Assembly: GCA_946407095.1 (NCBI GenBank)
Contig: CAMJMR010000021.1
Location: forward strand, 1 to 41,590
DNA: 41,590 bases
Source of the DNA: an uncultured Selenomonadales bacterium
GTDB lineage: Bacteria > Bacillota > Negativicutes > Selenomonadales > Selenomonadaceae
Reading direction: 5' to 3'
How positions within the stretch are numbered: the first letter of the stretch is position 1; every line of letters starts with the position of its first letter. Positions 3,443-41,542 of this stretch are shown in pieces. The notes beneath the pieces are model-generated. The model did no database searches. It was not told where the DNA came from and was given only the letters and a program-made list of their open reading frames with translations. The position numbers and the translations under genes are program-made.

Positions 3443-3470
3443 AACGTGACGGCCGCTTTAAAAGCGGCGA
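3443..3470 (-). repeat. Hairpin end of a GGCTAG-type repeat upstream of folD
   Basis: Contains GCAACGTGACG next to the palindrome GCCGCTTTAAAAGCGGC. The same two hairpin types end the GGCTAG elements at 11895-11990, 38012-38116 and 10378-10477. No GGCTAG end is recognisable, so this is probably a remnant. It sits just before the folD ribosome binding site. Confidence 0.55.
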
Positions 3471-3522
3471 AACAGACAGCGCGGTCAACCGCTCACGACT
3501 TCAATCAATCGCCGCGTAATTA

Positions 3523-5040: not shown

Positions 5041-5249
5041 GCCCTTTCTTCCCGCGCAAAAAAGGCCTCATAGAATCATTTTGTTTAGGATCTACTTTTT
5101 CTTTGTTCGGTCAAAGACCCGCTTAAAAAGCGGGGGAACAGTGTGGACGCGGCATCCTCCCTTAATCCGTTGACGAGTTTCAACGCGCTATCTGGATGCA
5201 ACGTTCACGTTGCTTTCTGTTGCCGGCGTCGCCCGTCCATGGGCGCCTC
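5041..5249 (+). repeat. Multi-hairpin repeat, copy R3 (variant)
   Basis: Starts with GCCCTTTCTTCCCGCGCAA and TCTCATAGAATCATT-like sequence shared with R5, followed by GTTTAGGATCTAC shared with R8. The right arm of hairpin 1 is lost and replaced by CCCGCTTAAAAAGCGGG. The central hairpin pairs GCAACGT with ACGTTGC, and the last pairs GGCGCCC-type arms. A sequence like a right terminal repeat, TTTGCCAACAAGCCC, follows near 5270-5284. Nothing gene-like is visible in 4982-5356 apart from this repeat and the folE2 ribosome binding site. Confidence 0.75.
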
Positions 5250-5356: not shown

Positions 5357-6151
5357 ATGACAGACGTACAAAACCAGCCCGACGCACGCGGTATCAAAAT
5401 ACAGAGGACAGGCGTCACGGAGGTGTTCCTGCCGTTTTTTATTTCGGACGGCGGAAAAATTCAGCAAGTCACGGCGAAAATCCGATTCACGGTCGCATTG
5501 GCGGACAATTTGCGCGGCACGCACATGAGCCGCTTAATGGAAATTTTGACGGCTTGGACGCGCCGCCCGCTGACAATCGCCGATGTCGAAAAAATTTTGC
5601 TCGAAGCGCACGAAAAACTTTCCACGGACTTCGCGGCGATAACTTTGGCATTCAAGCTCTTTACGGAAAAAATTTCGCCCGTCTCGTCGAAGGTGTCCCT
5701 AAGCGCGGTCGATTGCCAATTCGAGGCGTCATTGCGGCTCGGTGCCCGCATGAAGTTCACCTTGGGCTTGAGCGTGCCGTTTACGTCGCTTTGCCCGTGC
5801 AGCAAAGAAATTTCGGACTTCGGCGCGCACAATCAGCGCTCGCTTTGTCGCGTGAAGCTGACGTTCGCCGACGCCGACAAATTGGACGCCGTGAACATTG
5901 AGCGATTGATACGGCTGATTGAGGCGCAGGGCTCGGCGGAAGTGTTCCCGTTGCTTAAGCGCGAAGATGAAAAATTCATAACGGAGGCGGCGTATTGCAA
6001 TCCGAAGTTCGTCGAAGACATTTTGCGCGATGTGGTGACGGCTCTGCGCGGCGAGGAAAATCTTTCGGCGATGGCGGTCGAGTGCGAGAACTTTGAATCA
6101 ATTCACAGCCACAACGCCTTTGCCGCACACGAAGAAACTTTTGGAGGCTAG
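5357..6151 (+). CDS. folE2: GTP cyclohydrolase FolE2 (type IB)
   Basis: A 264-residue FolE2-family enzyme converting GTP to 7,8-dihydroneopterin triphosphate for folate and queuosine-type pathways; the family works with metals other than zinc. Seen are GTHMSRLME (54-62), CPCSKEIS with the active-site cysteine near 146-148, GAHNQR (156-161) and SIHSHNAFA near the end. GGAG precedes the ATG. The last 12 codons exist in a second copy at 6240-6275 beyond a GGCTAG repeat, and the TAG stop is itself part of GGCTAG. It leads the run folE2, P1 peptidase, phosphorylase. Confidence 0.95.
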   Translation: MTDVQNQPDARGIKIQRTGVTEVFLPFFISDGGKIQQVTAKIRFTVALADNLRGTHMSRLMEILTAWTRRPLTIADVEKILLEAHEKLSTDFAAITLAFKLFTEKISPVSSKVSLSAVDCQFEASLRLGARMKFTLGLSVPFTSLCPCSKEISDFGAHNQRSLCRVKLTFADADKLDAVNIERLIRLIEAQGSAEVFPLLKREDEKFITEAAYCNPKFVEDILRDVVTALRGEENLSAMAVECENFESIHSHNAFAAHEETFGG

Positions 6152-6239
6152 AAATGCGCAAGCATTTCGTTTCGACGCGGCGATAATGTTTAAGGCACGA
6201 GTGGCGCGGCGCGCTATCCGGATGCAACGTCACGTTGCC
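6146..6239 (+). repeat. GGCTAG repeat element E1
   Basis: Begins GGCTAG, overlapping the folE2 stop. A short hairpin pairs AAATGC with GCATTT, then comes a variable middle, and it ends in the hairpin GCAACGTCACGTTGC. Directly after it (6240-6275) lies a second, partly recoded copy of the folE2 C-terminal codons. Other members are at 10378-10477, 11895-11990 and 38012-38116. Confidence 0.8.
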
Positions 6240-6275
6240 GCCTTTGCCAGTCATGAAGAAACTTTTGGAGGGTGA
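6240..6275 (+). pseudogene. Duplicate of the folE2 3' end
   Basis: Twelve codons matching 6116-6151. Read in its own frame it gives AFASHEETFGG and TGA, against AFAAHEETFGG and TAG in the gene. The nucleotide changes are GCA/AGT, CAC/CAT, GGC/GGG and the stop. Its GGAGGG is the ribosome binding site of the next gene, so this copy is probably the ancestral folE2 tail still serving that gene. Confidence 0.75.
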
Positions 6276-10505: not shown

Positions 10506-11894
10506 ATGCAAAATATCGATTTAACGGCGAAGGTTACGAGAGTCATTCGCTGCAGCCTGATCGGCGTGATTGCCTTGTCGCTGATTATCGGCTACGCCGA
10601 GTTCAAATATTGGCACAGAGACGAGACGCTTATCCTTGACGACGCAAAAGTTGTCGGGACAATGGTATCGGTGCGCGTCTTGGCGAACGGAAAAGTCAAA
10701 CAGCTTTTGTTCGACGACGGAGCCGAAGTGTACGCGGGCGATGTGATAGCGCGCCTGGAAGTCGCCATAACCGAGGAAGAAATTCGTCAGCTGGAAGAGA
10801 CCGTTCAGCTTGCCAAAGACAACTACGCGAATCTGCAGGGCGGACAAATGGTAACCGTGCCCGTTCAGCGTCAACGAGTGACATATCCGCCCGCACCGCC
10901 GCCGTCAGTGTCGTATTCCGCGCCGTCAGGCAACTTGGCTAAGCTGGAGGAGCGCGCGAATCGAATGGCCGAATTGTTCGAGATGGGAGCCGTCAGCGCG
11001 GTGCAAAGAGATGCCGCCCGCCGCGCTTACGAAAGCGCACTTGCCGAATCGTCGTCGTCATCCTACAGCTATTCCGCCGCGCCCGAGCCGATTATCGAAT
11101 ACTACACCGAATACGTTCAGGAATTCAGACCCACGCCGCCCGAAGTCTTGGAGGGTGCCGCGCAGGCCATTAAGCAAGCCGAATTGTCGCTGAACGTCGC
11201 CCGTCAAGAGGCACGCGAAACCGATGTCGTGTCGCCCGTCAACGGAACGATTTATTACGGCGTCAAAGGCGGACAGGACTTGGCGGCGGGCGAAAGCGTT
11301 GCCCGAATTGGTGACAGCCGCGAACTTTGGATTGAGGCGGTCGTCACGGAGGAAGTCTTCGACAAAATCACGTTGGGCAAGCTTGCAAGCTGTACGATTG
11401 ACGGCAAGGAAATTTTCGGCACGGTCATGGAAAAAATCAGACCGAACGTCGCCGAGCCCGTTGAAGAGACGCCGATTGAATTGCCCGACATTCCCGCCAC
11501 GGAAAATCAGCCCGCCGCGTTGATTGGCGATAATCCTCCCGCCGAGGGCGAACAGCCTGCTACTGAACAGCCGCCGCCTGCCACGGAAGAGCCTCCTCAA
11601 GTCGTCGAAGCCGAAACGGAAGTCATTGACGCGCAACCGCCCGCAGAAGGCGAAACTCAGCCCGAAGCCGCGCAAGTGCCCGCCGAGGGCGAACAACCTC
11701 CAGCCGACGCGCCGCCTCCTGCCGAATCGCAACCGACAGAGGAACAAGCTCAACCGCAACCGCCGAAACTTCCCGACGGCACCGAAAGTCAGCCCAAACC
11801 CAACGACAAGTTCATCATAAAAATTTCGTTGCCCGTCGAGCGTGATTTTGAATGCAAACCGAACACCGCCGTCGTCGTCAAAATAAAGTTGTGA
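10506..11894 (+). CDS. HlyD/membrane-fusion-like adaptor with Pro/Glu-rich insert
   Basis: A 462-residue protein. Residues 1-12 are cytosolic, and about 13-30 form one transmembrane helix. A lipoyl-like half motif follows (VSVRVLANGKVKQLLFDDGAEVYAGDVIARLE), then a broken helical hairpin and a second lipoyl half (DVVSPVNGTIYYGVKGGQDLAAG). This is the order seen in membrane-fusion proteins of type I or efflux systems. About 120 residues rich in Pro, Glu, Gln and Ala, with PAEGEQP repeats, are inserted near the C-terminus before a last beta strand. That insert is unusual and may span periplasm or wall. No partner ABC or RND gene is in the window. The last 18 codons recur downstream in recoded form. 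Confidence 0.8.
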   Translation: MQNIDLTAKVTRVIRCSLIGVIALSLIIGYAEFKYWHRDETLILDDAKVVGTMVSVRVLANGKVKQLLFDDGAEVYAGDVIARLEVAITEEEIRQLEETVQLAKDNYANLQGGQMVTVPVQRQRVTYPPAPPPSVSYSAPSGNLAKLEERANRMAELFEMGAVSAVQRDAARRAYESALAESSSSSYSYSAAPEPIIEYYTEYVQEFRPTPPEVLEGAAQAIKQAELSLNVARQEARETDVVSPVNGTIYYGVKGGQDLAAGESVARIGDSRELWIEAVVTEEVFDKITLGKLASCTIDGKEIFGTVMEKIRPNVAEPVEETPIELPDIPATENQPAALIGDNPPAEGEQPATEQPPPATEEPPQVVEAETEVIDAQPPAEGETQPEAAQVPAEGEQPPADAPPPAESQPTEEQAQPQPPKLPDGTESQPKPNDKFIIKISLPVERDFECKPNTAVVVKIKL

Positions 11895-11990
11895 GGCTAG
11901 AAATGCGCATGCATTTCGTAATGGCGCGGCGAGTGGCTGAAGTTATCGGGCGTTGCAACGCGCTTGCTGTTCCGCCGCTTTTAAAGCGGC
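11895..11990 (+). repeat. GGCTAG repeat element E3
   Basis: Begins GGCTAG right after the TGA of the HlyD-like gene, with the hairpin AAATGC/GCATTT next, and ends with CCGCTTTTAAAGCGG. The next base starts a 54-base recoded copy of the gene's 3' end. Confidence 0.8.
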
Positions 11991-12044
11991 CGCGATTTTG
12001 AATGCAAGCCGAACACCGCCGTCGTCATCAAGATTAAAGTTTGA
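11991..12044 (+). pseudogene. Duplicate of the HlyD-like gene 3' end
   Basis: 54 bases, 18 codons, aligned without gaps to 11841-11894. It reads RDFECKPNTAVVIKIKV and TGA, against RDFECKPNTAVVVKIKL and TGA. Seven codons differ: five changes are synonymous (CGT/CGC, AAA/AAG twice, ATA/ATT, AAG/AAA) and two are conservative (Val/Ile, Leu/Val). It has no start codon and no sign of being translated. Confidence 0.8.
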
Positions 12045-22758: not shown

Positions 22759-22987
22759 GCCCTTTCTTCCCGCGCAAGAAAGGTCTCATAGAATCATTGT
22801 TGATTAACTACTTTTTCTTTGTGCGGTCAAAGAAAAAGTAGCAAAAAGAAAAACCGCCTCGCAGGGGCGTCAAAGGTCGTCGCCGCAACTAACCACAGTC
22901 TGCACAGGTGTCGCAAATCAAGCCGCCCGTGCCGGCAAAGAAACATCCATGTTTCTGTTGCCGGCGGCGCCCGTCCATGGGCGCCTC
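22759..22987 (+). repeat. Multi-hairpin repeat, copy R5
   Basis: Starts with CCTTTCTT/AAGAAAGG, an extra hairpin shared with R3. Hairpin 1 is CTACTTTTTCTTTG with CAAAGAAAAAGTAG: compared with R1 it is longer, and both arms changed together. A CCTCGCAGGGGCG segment follows, then the central hairpin GCCGGCAA-AGAAACAT / ATGTTTCT-G-TTGCCGGC as in R1 and a last hairpin GGCGCCCG/TGGGCGCC. No gene is seen in 22713-23073 beyond this repeat and a promoter. Confidence 0.85.
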
Positions 22988-29325: not shown

Positions 29326-29334
29326 AACGTAAAT

Positions 29335-29516
29335 CTACTTTCTTTCAGCGAGGAAAGAAACCTTACGCTCACCAGTTCGCGTTCGCCAAAGAAACTCGCC
29401 TCGCAGGGGCGGAAACCGACCACTGCCGCAACGCCCGCGCTACCCGAAGCCGTCTGTGCCGCTGTCGACGCATCACGCGTCGAAGTCGCGGCGGCCGCCC
29501 GTCCTTGGGCGGCCTC
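29335..29516 (+). repeat. Multi-hairpin repeat, copy R6
   Basis: CTACTTTCTTTCAGCGAGGAAAG begins it, but hairpin 1 is interrupted: the right arm ends at AAAGAAA and about 25 other bases stand before CCAAAGAAACTCG. Central hairpin pairs CCGC-TGTCGACGC with GCGTCGAAGT-CGCGG around ATCA; last hairpin GGCCGCCC/GGGCGGCC. A right-end repeat ACCAACACACCCCT follows at 29543-29556. No gene is seen in the 257 bases to the next start. Confidence 0.8.
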
Positions 29517-32564: not shown

Positions 32565-32602
32565 GGACAGAAAGAAAAATTTAAACAAACACAAAGGAGA
32601 CA

Positions 32603-32911
32603 ATGACTTACGAAATCCTCAGCATGGAGCAACTGGACAGCGTGGCGGGCGGCACCAACCGCGAGTGCAAGGAACTCAAAGACGCCCTGCCGGAAGTGGA
32701 CGGCTTCTTCGGAAAGCGCAAAATGCGTGAAAGCGAAGTAATCGCCTGGCTTGACAAGAACCTCGGAATCAAGGCGACCTTGCACGACGGATTTATCCTC
32801 GACCCGACCGACGACGCAGGTGACTCCAACCTTTACAAGCTCAAATCAACCGGCAAGTACATTTCCCACGAAGAGACCATGGACATGATTAACAAATTCC
32901 TCGGCAAGTAA
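32603..32911 (+). CDS. Double-glycine leader protein 1
   Basis: A 102-residue protein starting MTYEILSMEQLDSVAGG, a 17-residue leader of the double-glycine type normally cut after GG by the C39 peptidase domain of an ABC exporter. The remaining 85 residues are not a typical small bacteriocin. They share with the next three genes a domain with EV-xx-WL, IKATLHDGFILDPTDDAG, NLYK and SHEET. One cysteine only, so no disulphide or lanthionine pattern. AAAGGAG stands four bases before the ATG. Probable role: exported peptide or small protein for competition or signalling (inference). No exporter or immunity gene is recognised nearby. Confidence 0.8.
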   Translation: MTYEILSMEQLDSVAGGTNRECKELKDALPEVDGFFGKRKMRESEVIAWLDKNLGIKATLHDGFILDPTDDAGDSNLYKLKSTGKYISHEETMDMINKFLGK

Positions 32912-32930
32912 TTGGAAGGAGACGACGACA

Positions 32931-33269
32931 ATGACTTACGAAATCCTCAGCATGGAGCAACTCGACGCGGTAAGCGGCGGCACCAACGGCGAATACAAAG
33001 AACTGCGCGACATGTTGCCCGAAATCAGATATGAGAACTTTTGGGGGACAACTAAGTACAGAAAGCCCAACTTTGGCGAAGTACAGGATTGGTTGCGCAG
33101 ACGCGTCAATGTAGTAGCAAAGATTGATGTCGGCGACTGGTGGAATCCCCTCGACAGCGCGGGCGAAAAAAATACTTACAAGGATATATTCAGCGGTGAA
33201 GTCTTGACACACAGCGAAGTCGTTGCCAGAGTCAAAACTTTTATAGACAATTTCGGACCAAATTGGTAA
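32931..33269 (+). CDS. Double-glycine leader protein 2
   Basis: A 112-residue paralogue. Its leader MTYEILSMEQLDAVSGG is almost the same as in protein 1. The mature part starts TNGEYKELRDMLPEI, has a Trp-rich middle (ENFWGT, VQDWLRRR, VGDWWNP), then the family block DSAGEKNTYK and THSEVV. No cysteine. AAGGAG precedes the ATG; the gap to gene 1 is 19 bases. Leader and first mature residues are far better kept than the rest, which suggests a common exporter and diversified cargo. Confidence 0.82.
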   Translation: MTYEILSMEQLDAVSGGTNGEYKELRDMLPEIRYENFWGTTKYRKPNFGEVQDWLRRRVNVVAKIDVGDWWNPLDSAGEKNTYKDIFSGEVLTHSEVVARVKTFIDNFGPNW

Positions 33270-33284
33270 TTGGAGGGAACTAAA

Positions 33285-33605
33285 ATGACTTACGAAATCA
33301 TGAGCATGAACGAACTCGACGCAGTAAGCGGCGGCACATACGGCGAGTACAAGGAGCTGCGCGATCTCATAAAGAGAAACACCGGCAAGGAATTGAACGC
33401 GAGAGGCGTTGAGAAATGGTTGAAAGACACGTTTGACATCGAAGCGGAAATCAGCACCGGATTTTTCCTGAACTTCAGTGACGACGCGGGCAAAACGAAC
33501 ACCTACAAAACGATAATCCCGTCGGAATATCCCAATACAAAACCGATGATAGAATACATTTCTCACCAAGAAGTTATCAAGCGAATCAAGAAACACTTTG
33601 GCTGA
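33285..33605 (+). CDS. Double-glycine leader protein 3
   Basis: A 106-residue paralogue with leader MTYEIMSMNELDAVSGG, mature start TYGEYKELRDLI, then VEKWLKDTFDIEAEISTGFFLNFSDDAGKTNTYK (in blocks) and a longer loop before ISHQEVIKRIKK. No cysteine. I start at ATG 33285, behind TTGGAGGG; an in-frame upstream ATG at 33270 has no such site. It ends the first tandem set and is followed by a terminator. Confidence 0.82.
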   Translation: MTYEIMSMNELDAVSGGTYGEYKELRDLIKRNTGKELNARGVEKWLKDTFDIEAEISTGFFLNFSDDAGKTNTYKTIIPSEYPNTKPMIEYISHQEVIKRIKKHFG

Positions 33606-36271: not shown

Positions 36272-38011
36272 GTGGACGATAAAAAAGTTTTCGAGTTGGC
36301 GGATGCTTGCGGGATTTTCGAGCTGACGGGCGCGGACATTCAAGCGGAAGAAATTTTGACGGCGGGCAATTCGTTTTTCGACAAAAGCTATTTCGGGACG
36401 CGCGTTTTGATTTTGGCTCCGCACCCCGACGACGAAATTAACATCGCGGGCAACATGATTCTGACTATGGCGGCGGCGAAGGCTGAAATTTTCGCGGCGT
36501 ATTCGACGAGCGGCGACTTCGTCCAAGCGGCGGAGGTTCGTGCTCAAGAGGCGGTCGACGCGCTGAAAATTTTGGGCGTGCCGCGCGAAAGGATAATTTT
36601 CCTGGGCTATGGCGACGGGCATAAACTTTCCGACACGCCGACGCCTTCGCCTGCCGGTCACGTCGAAACCTACGCGGCTGCGGGCTTCGTCGACTACGCG
36701 ACAAAAACTTTCGGGCGACCCGCCGCCTACACCCGCCAAAACTTCAAGCGCGATTTGAAAAGCCTCCTGCTTGAGTTGCGGGCGAATATAATTTTCTGCG
36801 TCGACTTCGACAATCACCCCGACCACCGCACGCTGTCGATTCTGTTCGAGGAGGTCATGGGCGAAATTCTTTCCGAGCGCAACGACTATCGCCCCGAAGT
36901 CTACAAAAAGTTCGCCTACGCGACCGCCTTCACCGCCGCGCCCGATTTTTACGACGCCAACCTTCGCGCCACGCTCAAGCCGAAAATCGGCGAGACCGAC
37001 ACCTACGACTTCGACCTTGTCGACCGAGCCAATTACGTTTGGGCAAATCGCGTGCGCTTCCCCGTCATGAACTATCAGACGCTACTCAAGGACAATCCGC
37101 TTGCCGACGCGATTTTTGCGCACAAATCTCAACGCAACGAGTGGAACGCCCTCCGCATACTCAACAGCGACGAAATTTTTTTCGAGCGGCGCACCGACAG
37201 CTTGACGTTCGCCGCGCAGGTTCGGGCGACTTCCGGCGACGCCGCCAAGGTTCGCGACTTCAAACTGATTGACACTGCCGACGTTGCCGCCGTGCCCGCG
37301 CAGATTGCCGACAACCTTTGGCAACCGACCGACGCGCAACGGAAAATTTTTTTCGCATGGAACGAGGCAATTCAAGTTCGGCGCATTGTGCTTTACGGCA
37401 ACCCGCTTGACGAGGCGACCGCCAAGATTTCCTTGCGACTGGAACTTGCCGAGGCTCAAGCCGTCATTGACAAGACGCGGCTCTACCTGGATAATGTGAA
37501 AACTTTCAGCGCGGAGCTTCCGAATCGCGGGCGGCCGCTGATGATTGACACCGATAAAATTTTCGTGACGCGGGCTGAAATTGCCGTTGTCGACGCGGGA
37601 AAGGATTTCGGGCTTGCCGAGGTTGAATTCTTCGCCAATGCCGAGCCCCTGCGCAAAATCCCGCCGTTCGTCAAGCTGACGGTCAACGACAACTTTGCCT
37701 ACCGCTACGCCGTGCCCTCCGAGGCTGAAAAAATTTCGTTGGGGCTTTACCGCTTCCACGTCGACGCGCCCGTTAGGATTACGGCTGCGGCGGGCGACGA
37801 AAGCCTTTTGTCCGAAGTCGTCACGGACGGCGAGCTGATTCTGAATTTCGGCAAGGCCGAGGAAATTTTGGTGACGGCTGAAGTTATCGGCTCTGACATT
37901 TACGACCGCGTGATTATTCGCCGCGTCGGGGATTTGGCGCAAATTCAGCTGAAGGTTTGGCAGTGGCTCGACAAGCTTAGGGTTCACAAAATCAGGAATG
38001 TTGACAGATAA
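36272..38011 (+). CDS. PIG-L/LmbE-family deacetylase with C-terminal beta domains
   Basis: A 579-residue protein. Residues 40-260 are a PIG-L/LmbE domain, with the zinc motif APHPDDE (His51, Asp54) and the later NHPDHR. These enzymes remove N-acetyl groups from GlcNAc-type sugars. The last 300 residues are strand-rich with an FFAWNEAIQVRRIVLYGNP stretch that resembles a discoidin-type sugar-binding fold. No signal peptide, so a cytosolic sugar or lipid-sugar deacetylase is inferred. GTG start behind AGGTGATGTT. The last 18 codons are present again, recoded, at 38117-38170 beyond repeat E4. Confidence 0.87.
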   Translation: MDDKKVFELADACGIFELTGADIQAEEILTAGNSFFDKSYFGTRVLILAPHPDDEINIAGNMILTMAAAKAEIFAAYSTSGDFVQAAEVRAQEAVDALKILGVPRERIIFLGYGDGHKLSDTPTPSPAGHVETYAAAGFVDYATKTFGRPAAYTRQNFKRDLKSLLLELRANIIFCVDFDNHPDHRTLSILFEEVMGEILSERNDYRPEVYKKFAYATAFTAAPDFYDANLRATLKPKIGETDTYDFDLVDRANYVWANRVRFPVMNYQTLLKDNPLADAIFAHKSQRNEWNALRILNSDEIFFERRTDSLTFAAQVRATSGDAAKVRDFKLIDTADVAAVPAQIADNLWQPTDAQRKIFFAWNEAIQVRRIVLYGNPLDEATAKISLRLELAEAQAVIDKTRLYLDNVKTFSAELPNRGRPLMIDTDKIFVTRAEIAVVDAGKDFGLAEVEFFANAEPLRKIPPFVKLTVNDNFAYRYAVPSEAEKISLGLYRFHVDAPVRITAAAGDESLLSEVVTDGELILNFGKAEEILVTAEVIGSDIYDRVIIRRVGDLAQIQLKVWQWLDKLRVHKIRNVDR

Positions 38012-38116
38012 AATTTTTAAGGCTAGCAATGCGCATGCGTTGCGTTTCGTCGCGGCGATAACGTTTGAAGTGTCGGACGGCGCGGCGCGCTTACTGTTCC
38101 GCCGCTTTCAAAGCGG
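38012..38116 (+). repeat. GGCTAG repeat element E4
   Basis: Begins about ten A/T bases after the stop: GGCTAG, then a hairpin with CAATGC and GCGTTG arms. Compared with AAATGC/GCATTT of the other copies, the end pair changed on both sides (A-T to C-G), so pairing is kept. It ends CCGCTTTCAAAGCGGC, and the duplicated gene tail starts at the next base. Confidence 0.8.
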
Positions 38117-38170
38117 CTGGCAGTGGCTTGACAAGTTGCGCGTCCACAAGATACGAAAGGTCGACAGATG
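38117..38170 (+). pseudogene. Duplicate of the PIG-L gene 3' end
   Basis: 54 bases aligned without gaps to 37958-38011. Both read WQWLDKLRVHKIR, then N or K, VDR and a stop (TAA against TGA). Nine sense codons differ and eight changes are synonymous, including two-base swaps such as AGG/CGC, AGG/CGA and CTT/TTG. Its TGA overlaps the ATG of yrbL (ATGA), the usual operon junction, so this is probably the original tail and the upstream copy came later. Confidence 0.82.
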
Positions 38171-38785
38171 AGCAAAGTTTTGACAATCAACGAGGAACTG
38201 TTTATCGGTTCGGGCGGGCACCAAGCGACGTACATTCACCCGATTGACCCGCGCAAGTGCATAAAAATTCCGCACATGAAGGACGACGGCGACGTTCGCA
38301 AGGAAATGCGCTATCGTCGAATCTGCGCGGCAAAGTTGGAGCGTTCGCGGCTCGTGACGGAATTTTTCGGGACGGTCGAAACGAATTTGGGGCTCGGCTA
38401 CGTCTTTGAGCGCGTCGTCGATTACAACGGCGAAACCAGCCGCGATATGAAAGCCTTCCTGCCCAAGACCAAGCCCGACGCCAAGACGTTGCAACAAATC
38501 TGGACGGTGCTGTTGAACTTCAAATCTGACTTTCTGCGCGAAAACATTGCGATAGTCGACACCGACATAGAAAACTTCATGGTGCAGGAGACCGCGCCCG
38601 GAGCTTACCGCGTGCGAATCGTCGACAACATCGGCACGCCCGTTTTGATTCCGCTCGTCTATTGGTTTGAATTCGCGGCGGCGTGGAAGGCTAAACGCTA
38701 TTGGAACAGAATCGTCGATTGGCTCGCCGAAAACTACGCCGAAATAATTCCGCCCGAACTCGCCGCGCAGCTTAGGGAAAATTAA
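38168..38785 (+). CDS. yrbL: YrbL-family protein kinase-like protein
   Basis: A 205-residue member of the YrbL family, a small kinase-like fold. Seen are FIGSGGHQATYIHPIDPRKCIKI (glycine loop and lysine), TNLGLGYVFERVVDYNGE and a late IVDNIGTP where kinases have the DFG-like Asp. In enterobacteria yrbL is in the PhoP regulon; function is not settled. The ATG overlaps the stop of the duplicated PIG-L tail, so the original operon was PIG-L gene then yrbL. The ribosome site AAAGG lies in that tail. Confidence 0.85.
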   Translation: MSKVLTINEELFIGSGGHQATYIHPIDPRKCIKIPHMKDDGDVRKEMRYRRICAAKLERSRLVTEFFGTVETNLGLGYVFERVVDYNGETSRDMKAFLPKTKPDAKTLQQIWTVLLNFKSDFLRENIAIVDTDIENFMVQETAPGAYRVRIVDNIGTPVLIPLVYWFEFAAAWKAKRYWNRIVDWLAENYAEIIPPELAAQLREN

Positions 38786-40176: not shown

Positions 40177-40199
40177 AAAGACAGCTTTTGATTTTAAAT

Positions 40200-40383
40200 C
40201 TACTTTCTTTTGCACACCCAAAAGAAAGTAGCAAAGAAAAACCTCATGCTTGCCAGCGCGCATTCGCCCTCGCAGGGGCGAAAGGTCGTAACCCGCACCG
40301 CCCGATATTTTCAGCGTGGTTGCGCCGACGGTATTTGCATCACGCAAATGCGTCGGCGAGAGGCCGTCATCCATGACGGCCTC
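40200..40383 (+). repeat. Multi-hairpin repeat, copy R7
   Basis: CTACTTTCTTTTG, CACACCC, AAAAGAAAGTAG, CAAAGAAA; then a CCCTCGCAGGGGCG segment; central hairpin GCCGACGGTATTTGC/GCAAATGCGTCGGC around ATCAC; last hairpin GGCCGTCA/TGACGGCC. The last stem differs from R1 (GGCCGCCA/TGGCGGCC) on both arms. It ends three bases from the stop codon of the convergent GT2 gene. No other gene in 40143-40386. Confidence 0.85.
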
Positions 40384-41269: not shown

Positions 41270-41542
41270 CTAGGGGTTGTTGGTAAAGTGAAGTGGCGAT
41301 TCGGATTCGGCGTATCAATGACTTTTATGTTTAGGATCTATTTTCTTTCGCCGGGGAAAGAAAGTAGCAAAGAAACCCGCCGCTGCGCGCGGAGCGGCTG
41401 CCGACCACCGCCGAAATGCCCGCGCAAGCCGAAGCCGACTGTGCGCCGCTACTTCGCATCACGCTCAGTACGCGGCGCGGCCGCCATCCTTGGCGGCCTC
41501 TGTTCCCTGCCACTCTTTCCCTACTTTACCAACAAACCCTAG
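41270..41542 (+). mobile_element. MITE-like element R8 with terminal inverted repeats
   Basis: A 265-base body (41274-41538) flanked by CTAG at 41270-41273 and 41539-41542. The ends are inverted repeats: GGGTTGTTGGTAAAGT on the left, GGTTTGTTGGTAAAGT from the right, 15 of 16 matching. IS5-family elements use similar GG-TTGTTG-type ends and YTAR targets, so this looks like a non-autonomous derivative. Inside is a complete copy of the hairpin family (from 41338), with central hairpin GCGCCGC/GCGGCGC and last hairpin GGCCGCCA/TGGCGGCC. No protein is encoded. Confidence 0.8.

Follow-up and report, generated by a model that had tools for sequence, protein, structure and literature searches.

An uncultured bacterium of the Selenomonadaceae carries at least 114 copies of a short GGCTAG element in its genome, and at one of them the 3' end of a PIG-L domain gene stands twice, once on each side of the element, in two forms that differ mostly at silent positions. 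The explanation that we favour, with a confidence somewhat above even, is that the element is a short repeat with a variable target duplication and that, at the PIG-L locus, the upstream copy of the gene's tail (tail 1) came from another lineage and the downstream copy (tail 2) is native. The window analysed here is the whole stretch of 41,590 nucleotides that contains this locus, from a draft genome of 101 contigs, 89% complete.

The PIG-L gene (36272..38011, plus strand; open reading frame of 579 amino acids, Pfam PIG-L E 2.3e-18) has tail 1 as its coding end (37958..38011, plus), delimited by comparison with tail 2 and with relatives. Behind the stop codon lies a 5' segment that differs between element copies (AATTTTTAAGG; 38012..38022, plus), followed by the element core of 95 bases, from CTAG to the end of the 3' hairpin (38023..38117, plus), as defined by comparison of 120 copies from the same genome. 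The core contains a 5' hairpin, CAATGC-GCAT-GCGTTG, with one T.G pair (38027..38042, plus; pair counts over these copies and single-copy folds), and closes on the terminal hairpin GCCGCTTTCAAAGCGGC (38101..38117, plus), which sets its exact 3' end. Tail 2 (38118..38171, plus) is probably the native tail, displaced, given its agreement with a single-tailed relative (48/52). Its TGA overlaps the ATG of a YrbL-like gene (38168..38785, plus; Pfam PF10707, E 6e-31). A preliminary description of this DNA had the coordinates of tail 1 right and began tail 2 one base early, at 38117.

The two tails are 77% identical over 52 bases, at a spacing of 160. Nine of the 17 sense codons differ, eight of them silently and one as N/K, and three of the silent differences require two base changes, as had been noted before; the stop codons differ too (TAA/TGA). 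At the level of single bases, 11 of the 12 changes in sense codons are silent. This is hardly expected from random mutation, and recoding of tail 1 by mutation was rejected on this ground and on that of its distance to the genus, which shows no excess (see below). A diversity-generating retroelement was likewise rejected, since the changes at this locus are of many kinds, mostly silent and not adenine-directed, and the genome gave no RVT_1 match.

The duplicated tail around the element is real and is one case of a genome-wide pattern. Two further copies in the window match the 5' pattern of the element, and each stands behind a same-strand frame whose tail recurs after the element. One (6148..6238, plus; flanks 6115-6147 and 6239-6271) comes after a folE2-like gene (5357-6151), the other (11897..11990, plus; flanks 11841-11894 and 11991-12044) after an open reading frame at 10506-11894 with weak HlyD-type matches. 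A stretch on the minus strand, 3450-3492, matches the 3' part of the latter copy and not the 5' pattern; it is possibly a fourth, partial element. Other repeats of the window are of different kinds: three related tandem stretches at 32590-33364 with a conserved coding start (MTYEI...), presumably resembling leader peptides of bacteriocin-type genes; further repeat families with TACTTTCTTT palindromes (68-156, 5081-5117, 22797-22833, 29329-29439, 40196-40366 and 41332-41424); and a 52-base inverted repeat at the contig ends (19-70 and 41539-41590).

With up to two mismatches, the 5' pattern of the element gave 105 matches in the genome and a single one for the reversed control. A longer pattern was found 114 times in the same genome, seven times in G013 and not at all in the other 23 genomes of that search, and a 12-base pattern alone has at least 125 exact matches. 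The 120 copies collected are those in the fetched sequence stretches; the genome holds more. Element-like matches were also met in further genomes of the genus, including, away from the PIG-L locus, that of the nearest relative G080. A scan of public genomes returned at least 50 matching stretches, all titled Selenomonadaceae, Selenomonadales or Quinella, rumen genomes among them. The passages on Quinella genomes in one published study (PMC9585023) mention no such repeats, a statement that concerns those passages and not the literature at large.

The anatomy of the element is established by its own copies. The core from CTAG to a perfect 3' hairpin is present in 107 of 120 copies, and several types of 3' hairpin are interchangeable, with GCAACGTCACGTTGC in 28 and GCCGCTTTTAAAGCGGC in 17 of 106 copies. 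In the 5' hairpin, pair counts over the copies show mostly A-T or C-G at the base and T-A or T.G inside, a pairing that suits RNA or single-stranded DNA. Terminal inverted repeats were not detected, the mean longest exact inverted match being 4.40 in the copies vs 4.41 in shuffles. A longer 5' part, starting near YGTTGGTAA, was recognised in 21/120 copies vs 7/107 control stretches, about ten of these being convincing by eye, and up to 70 upstream bases are common to some copies. The stretch between tail 1 and CTAG also varies from copy to copy. The element thus has a fixed 3' end and a variable 5' end. Within the elements of L087, L117, L098 and L097 there is a 24-base hairpin unit (GTTTGGTTACTTTTTAAAAGTAAC), bordered on both sides by a repeat of about ten element bases; it could be a smaller mobile unit. 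As to placement, the end of a same-strand gene precedes the element in 68 of 94 cases, vs 39 of 94 with the end of an opposite-strand gene downstream (p 3e-5; both counts are built on open frames rather than annotated genes). An Rfam search for a known RNA family gave nothing credible at the element (one match, E 4.8), and at eight loci no match fell inside it. Away from the element, a stretch of L034 (216-291, minus) matched the tmRNA model at 34.8 bits, the family cut-off being 47.

Of the 106 testable copies, 43 show the upstream flank again behind the hairpin, whereas flanks of mismatched pairs agree in 1 of 843 (0.12%); the cut-off score, at least 16, is that of the PIG-L locus itself. 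A gapped method at the same score again gave 43/106, with 0.24% in its control. In 33 of these 43 copies the duplicate begins between -1 and +6 from the hairpin end, and its first four bases show a preference for |CGSC (C 26/33, G 19/33, S 25/33, C 19/33). The matched length in the 33 cases ranges from 16 to 103 with a median of 39, the longest belonging to a tandem array. At other fetched loci, duplicated flanks were found at 25 of 98 hairpins vs 0 of 98 in the control, six of the 25 rows stemming from two tandem arrays; 13 of these duplicates start at +1 and the remainder at 0 to +7. Taken together, the recurrence of the flank in 43/106 copies and the |CGSC preference indicate that the tail duplication is a long target duplication of variable length. 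The preliminary description had doubted a target duplication; the duplication itself is one, identical over the matched stretch in 15 of the 43 pairs and lying outside any same-strand reading frame in 10. That description is supported in that other elements, too, have the tail of the upstream gene repeated behind them. Most copies (63/106) show no duplication, which it had named as grounds for refutation and which, taken literally, holds, yet 43/106 is far above chance. We propose that the copies devoid of duplication are old, were rearranged or arrived in another way. At L027, L058, L090, L095, L111 and L072, at least two units of tail plus element stand in a tandem array.

Silent differences between the tails are real and recur at other loci. 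An automatic count over coding pairs, which excludes tandem loci 9, 118 and 119, gave 36 silent and 21 replacement codon differences (63% silent); loci #19 and #45 appear misframed, and a hand adjustment, which is not to be taken as a result, would change these numbers to about 40 and 16. A simulation in which one copy is free and the other constrained predicts 36% silent differences, and none of 2000 runs reached the observed 36/57. Without the PIG-L locus (L033), 28 of 48 differences are silent, a figure reached in 1 of 1000 simulations. In another genome (G015), the pair at L230 shows nine silent differences and one replacement. Other diverged tails are not mainly silent, with silent-to-replacement ratios of 0:2 at L024 and 4:5 at L189. 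The earlier statement that both tails evolved as coding sequence thus agrees with the silent excess, and also with the four differences between tail 2 and G080, which are all at third positions and imply that tail 2 was coding until recently. The term "recoded", by contrast, seems misplaced: the tails probably differ mostly silently because they differ as orthologues do, and the differences look like an exchange of gene variants between related bacteria.

Comparison with relatives bears on which tail is native. Among 66 genomes of the genus, G080 is the nearest relative at the PIG-L locus, where it has one tail and no element. Identity to G080 is 55/60 over the last 60 bases of the gene body, 40/52 in tail 1, 48/52 in tail 2 and 95/100 downstream. 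The second copy, which had been said to look original from its overlap with yrbL, is therefore also the one that fits the element-free relative. The 54-base body window just ahead of tail 1 is 94% identical to G080, which argues against wholesale replacement of the gene by a divergent allele, as had been suggested. Body windows range from 79 to 94%, so that tail 1, at 77%, is the lowest, yet not far out. The tract that looks foreign extends from about the start of tail 1 to the element. At L033 and L049, tail 1 differs from G080 at 12 sites each, vs 5.5 and 6.5 expected for a native sequence (combined p 0.003), an excess that is weakly significant at each locus (p 0.01 and 0.03). The distances of tails 1 and 2 to the rest of the genus are 0.189 vs 0.177 at L033 and 0.207 vs 0.203 at L049, in a comparison from which poorly covered rows were dropped (15/40 at locus 83 and 6/29 at locus 76), a step that excludes species with other tail forms, and in which five genomes are represented twice in the 24 other rows of locus 83. 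Tail 1 is thus not farther from the genus than tail 2, as it would be from every other species had it arisen from tail 2 by a dozen new mutations, and it carries no extra private mutations.

The same question was put to the other duplicated loci. Twelve were tried against G080; ten matched (L031 without an informative site), L077 gave no match and L038 was absent from the query. At the sites where the tails differ, over the ten loci, G080 agrees with tail 2 at 30, with tail 1 at 11 and with neither at 6 (sign test, p 0.002, the sites within one locus not being independent). L033, L049 and L040, singled out for their mostly silent differences, together give 19 sites for tail 2, two for tail 1 and two for neither. 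No lean to tail 2 is seen at L113, L032, L084, L080, L105 and L024. At L033 and L049, tail 2 and G080 are in agreement from the first differing site onward; at L040, the difference is confined to the final portion of tail 1. L230 (G015) points the other way, with tail 1 matching G050 at 51/63 and tail 2 at 44/63. At this locus a potC-like gene adjoins aspS, and in the listed relatives the parts match different contigs or separate places, so that rearrangement or misassembly is possible. A donor of tail 1 was not found among the tails of 18 and 29 loci (overlapping genomes, part of the 66), where the best match was 48/54, in G066. In G054, a related element stands at the same base of the PIG-L tail, between tails that are equal at 52 of 54 bases, and it may have been inserted independently or inherited; among the copies of our genome its best match is the one at the PIG-L locus (29 vs 28 for the next). 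G042 has an element at another base of the same tail. Larger, different inserts followed by a short tail repeat occupy the same gene end at L239 (G046) and L260 (G068). On moderate evidence from these comparisons, tail 1 of the PIG-L gene looks like an allele from a lineage outside the G000-G080 pair, with tail 2 as the native tail.

The favoured explanation can be put as follows. We infer that the element is mobile: a short non-autonomous repeat would insert with its 3' hairpin joined to a |CGSC-preferring site and would duplicate some tens of target bases. At gene ends, the upstream duplicate would keep the gene intact, and such insertions would for that reason survive. At the PIG-L locus, tail 1 would have come by homologous exchange from another lineage of the genus, either with the element or after its arrival. 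These two possibilities and an overwriting of tail 2 each require exchange between lineages and each explain the silence of the differences; import with the element or later exchange of tail 1 fit L033 best, and overwriting of tail 2 is hinted at. In that last version, which we find rather unlikely, an old insertion would have made a fresh duplication, and gene conversion by an allele lacking the element would later have replaced tail 2 together with about 220 bases beyond it, tail 1 staying with the lineage. Tail 2 and the next four windows are indeed 93-98% identical to G080, falling afterwards to 81-92%, and the edges would come free, as homology necessarily ends at the element. However, in most other species, too, the beginning of yrbL shows stronger conservation than the part that follows; tail 1 is more distant from G080 than a native lineage would lead one to expect, and the window directly upstream of it is 94% identical. 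It should also be noted that the favoured explanation has difficulties of its own. Both edges of the foreign tract lie near the insertion point, although plain recombination need not place them there; the lean to tail 2 rests on three loci, with six others showing none and L230 reversed; several diverged tails are not mainly silent; and neither a donor among the tails compared nor a mobilising enzyme was found. In another version, the element carries its own replacement tail: a unit made of tens of bases of 5' flank plus the element would enter a second cell and join its homologous gene precisely at the same CGSC-type point, much as integrating elements restore a tRNA gene. A foreign-looking tail 1 between native-looking body and tail 2, the agreement of tail 2 with G080 from the first differing site at L033 and L049, and the element of G054 at the same point would all suit this mechanism. 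Against it, the shared 5' sequences resemble a longer form of the element and not transduced tails, 15 of the 43 duplications are identical, L040 differs only in the last part of tail 1, and the element of G054 may descend from a common ancestor; we consider it unlikely.

Explanations without exchange between lineages fare less well. An ordinary target duplication that has aged, tail 2 drifting freely and tail 1 changing silently, suits the many pairs with 0-3 differences, several of them amino-acid replacing. It is nevertheless highly improbable for the PIG-L tails, where the copy released from coding lies closer to G080 than the one still coding. At the loci with strongly silent differences, ageing under neutrality was rejected, the simulated silent fraction being far below that observed; the silent excess at L033, L049, L040 and L230 runs counter to it. 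Continued translation of tail 2 might occur by read-through, frameshift or removal of the element from the RNA, and an uninterrupted frame does lead through the element into tail 2 at L033 and L049. However, 21 of 30 coding cases hit a stop just before the element or between its start and tail 2, for which reason this was rejected as a general explanation, and the spacing falls into all three classes modulo 3 (14/10/6, with hand-set frames in some cases); we regard it as scarcely credible. Finally, an assembly chimera, in which sequences of two strains within a metagenome bin were joined at the repeat, accords with the state of the draft, typical of such bins, and with the repetitive nature of the element. 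It appears very unlikely, as the foreign stretch seems to have a limit towards the gene body too and not just at the repeat, and as another genome has a pair of the silent type as well, at L230, a locus that may itself be rearranged.

The enzymes that might move the element were searched for by family. The 89% complete genome gave no match to RVT_1, Y1, Y2 or IS1634-family transposases. Among 16 genomes of the genus, RVT_1 occurs in G007 and G012, both of which lack the 5' pattern, like 12 others, and Y1 transposases in G002, G013 (a fragment) and G007 (below the cut-off). None of the 66 genomes exceeded the cut-off for Y2 transposases (one weak match), in a search that also gave 0 of 14 control genomes, and none did so for IS1634-family transposases (five weak matches, none in our genome).

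SINE-like retroposons arise by target-primed reverse transcription, and the element resembles them: its 3' end is exact and its 5' end variable, its target duplications are long and of varying length, and its hairpins contain T.G pairs. It differs from them in ending in a hairpin, with no RVT_1 in its own genome and no RNA parent in Rfam. Elements that use tRNA-type att sites integrate into gene 3' ends and restore the tail; L033 is similar, in that a foreign-looking tail adjoins the gene body and the native tail is displaced past the element. However, an element of about 95 bases is too short to encode an integrase, and many of the duplications are identical copies or fall outside same-strand genes. 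The MITEs of DDE transposons differ by their terminal inverted repeats and short duplications of fixed length (here 16-103, median 39). REP/REPIN sequences with RAYT, relatives of IS200/IS605, are likewise short palindromic multicopy repeats with hairpins near their ends, but the element makes duplications in 43/106 copies and its genome has no Y1 match. The features tested thus led us to reject both a classical MITE and a REP/RAYT repeat; a rolling-circle origin of the IS91/Helitron type is unsupported. Members of IS200/IS605 are described, in the part of the source considered, as making no larger target duplications (PMC2817692). For IS1549/IS1634, direct repeats of 8 to 514 bases have been reported, and the part of the source considered states that no mechanistic model had been proposed as of 2008 (PMC2266710). 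The long variable duplications are shared with the present element, which differs in its size of about 95 bases, its lack of terminal inverted repeats and the absence of IS1634-family transposases above the cut-off in the 66 genomes. In its behaviour the element comes closest to a short repeat with long duplications of the IS1549/IS1634 type or to a SINE-like retroposon, but none of the enzymes searched for was found in its 89% complete genome.

A bolder and distinctly unlikely version of the latter would be a bacterial SINE-like element, a structured and RNA-like repeat of about 100 bases, that is copied into |CGSC by one-sided target priming and can home between lineages into the same gene end, bringing the gene's own tail with it. 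If so, genes would gain allele-swapped C-termini with some insertions. To our knowledge, it is unusual for a short bacterial repeat to lack inverted repeats and to duplicate tens of target bases. With more than 100 copies in this one genome and an exact 3' junction, the family makes it possible to measure how targets are chosen, how long the duplications are and how lineages exchange sequence. The element shows how an insertion inside a gene end can come at low cost, and the paired tails may record gene exchange in uncultured rumen bacteria.
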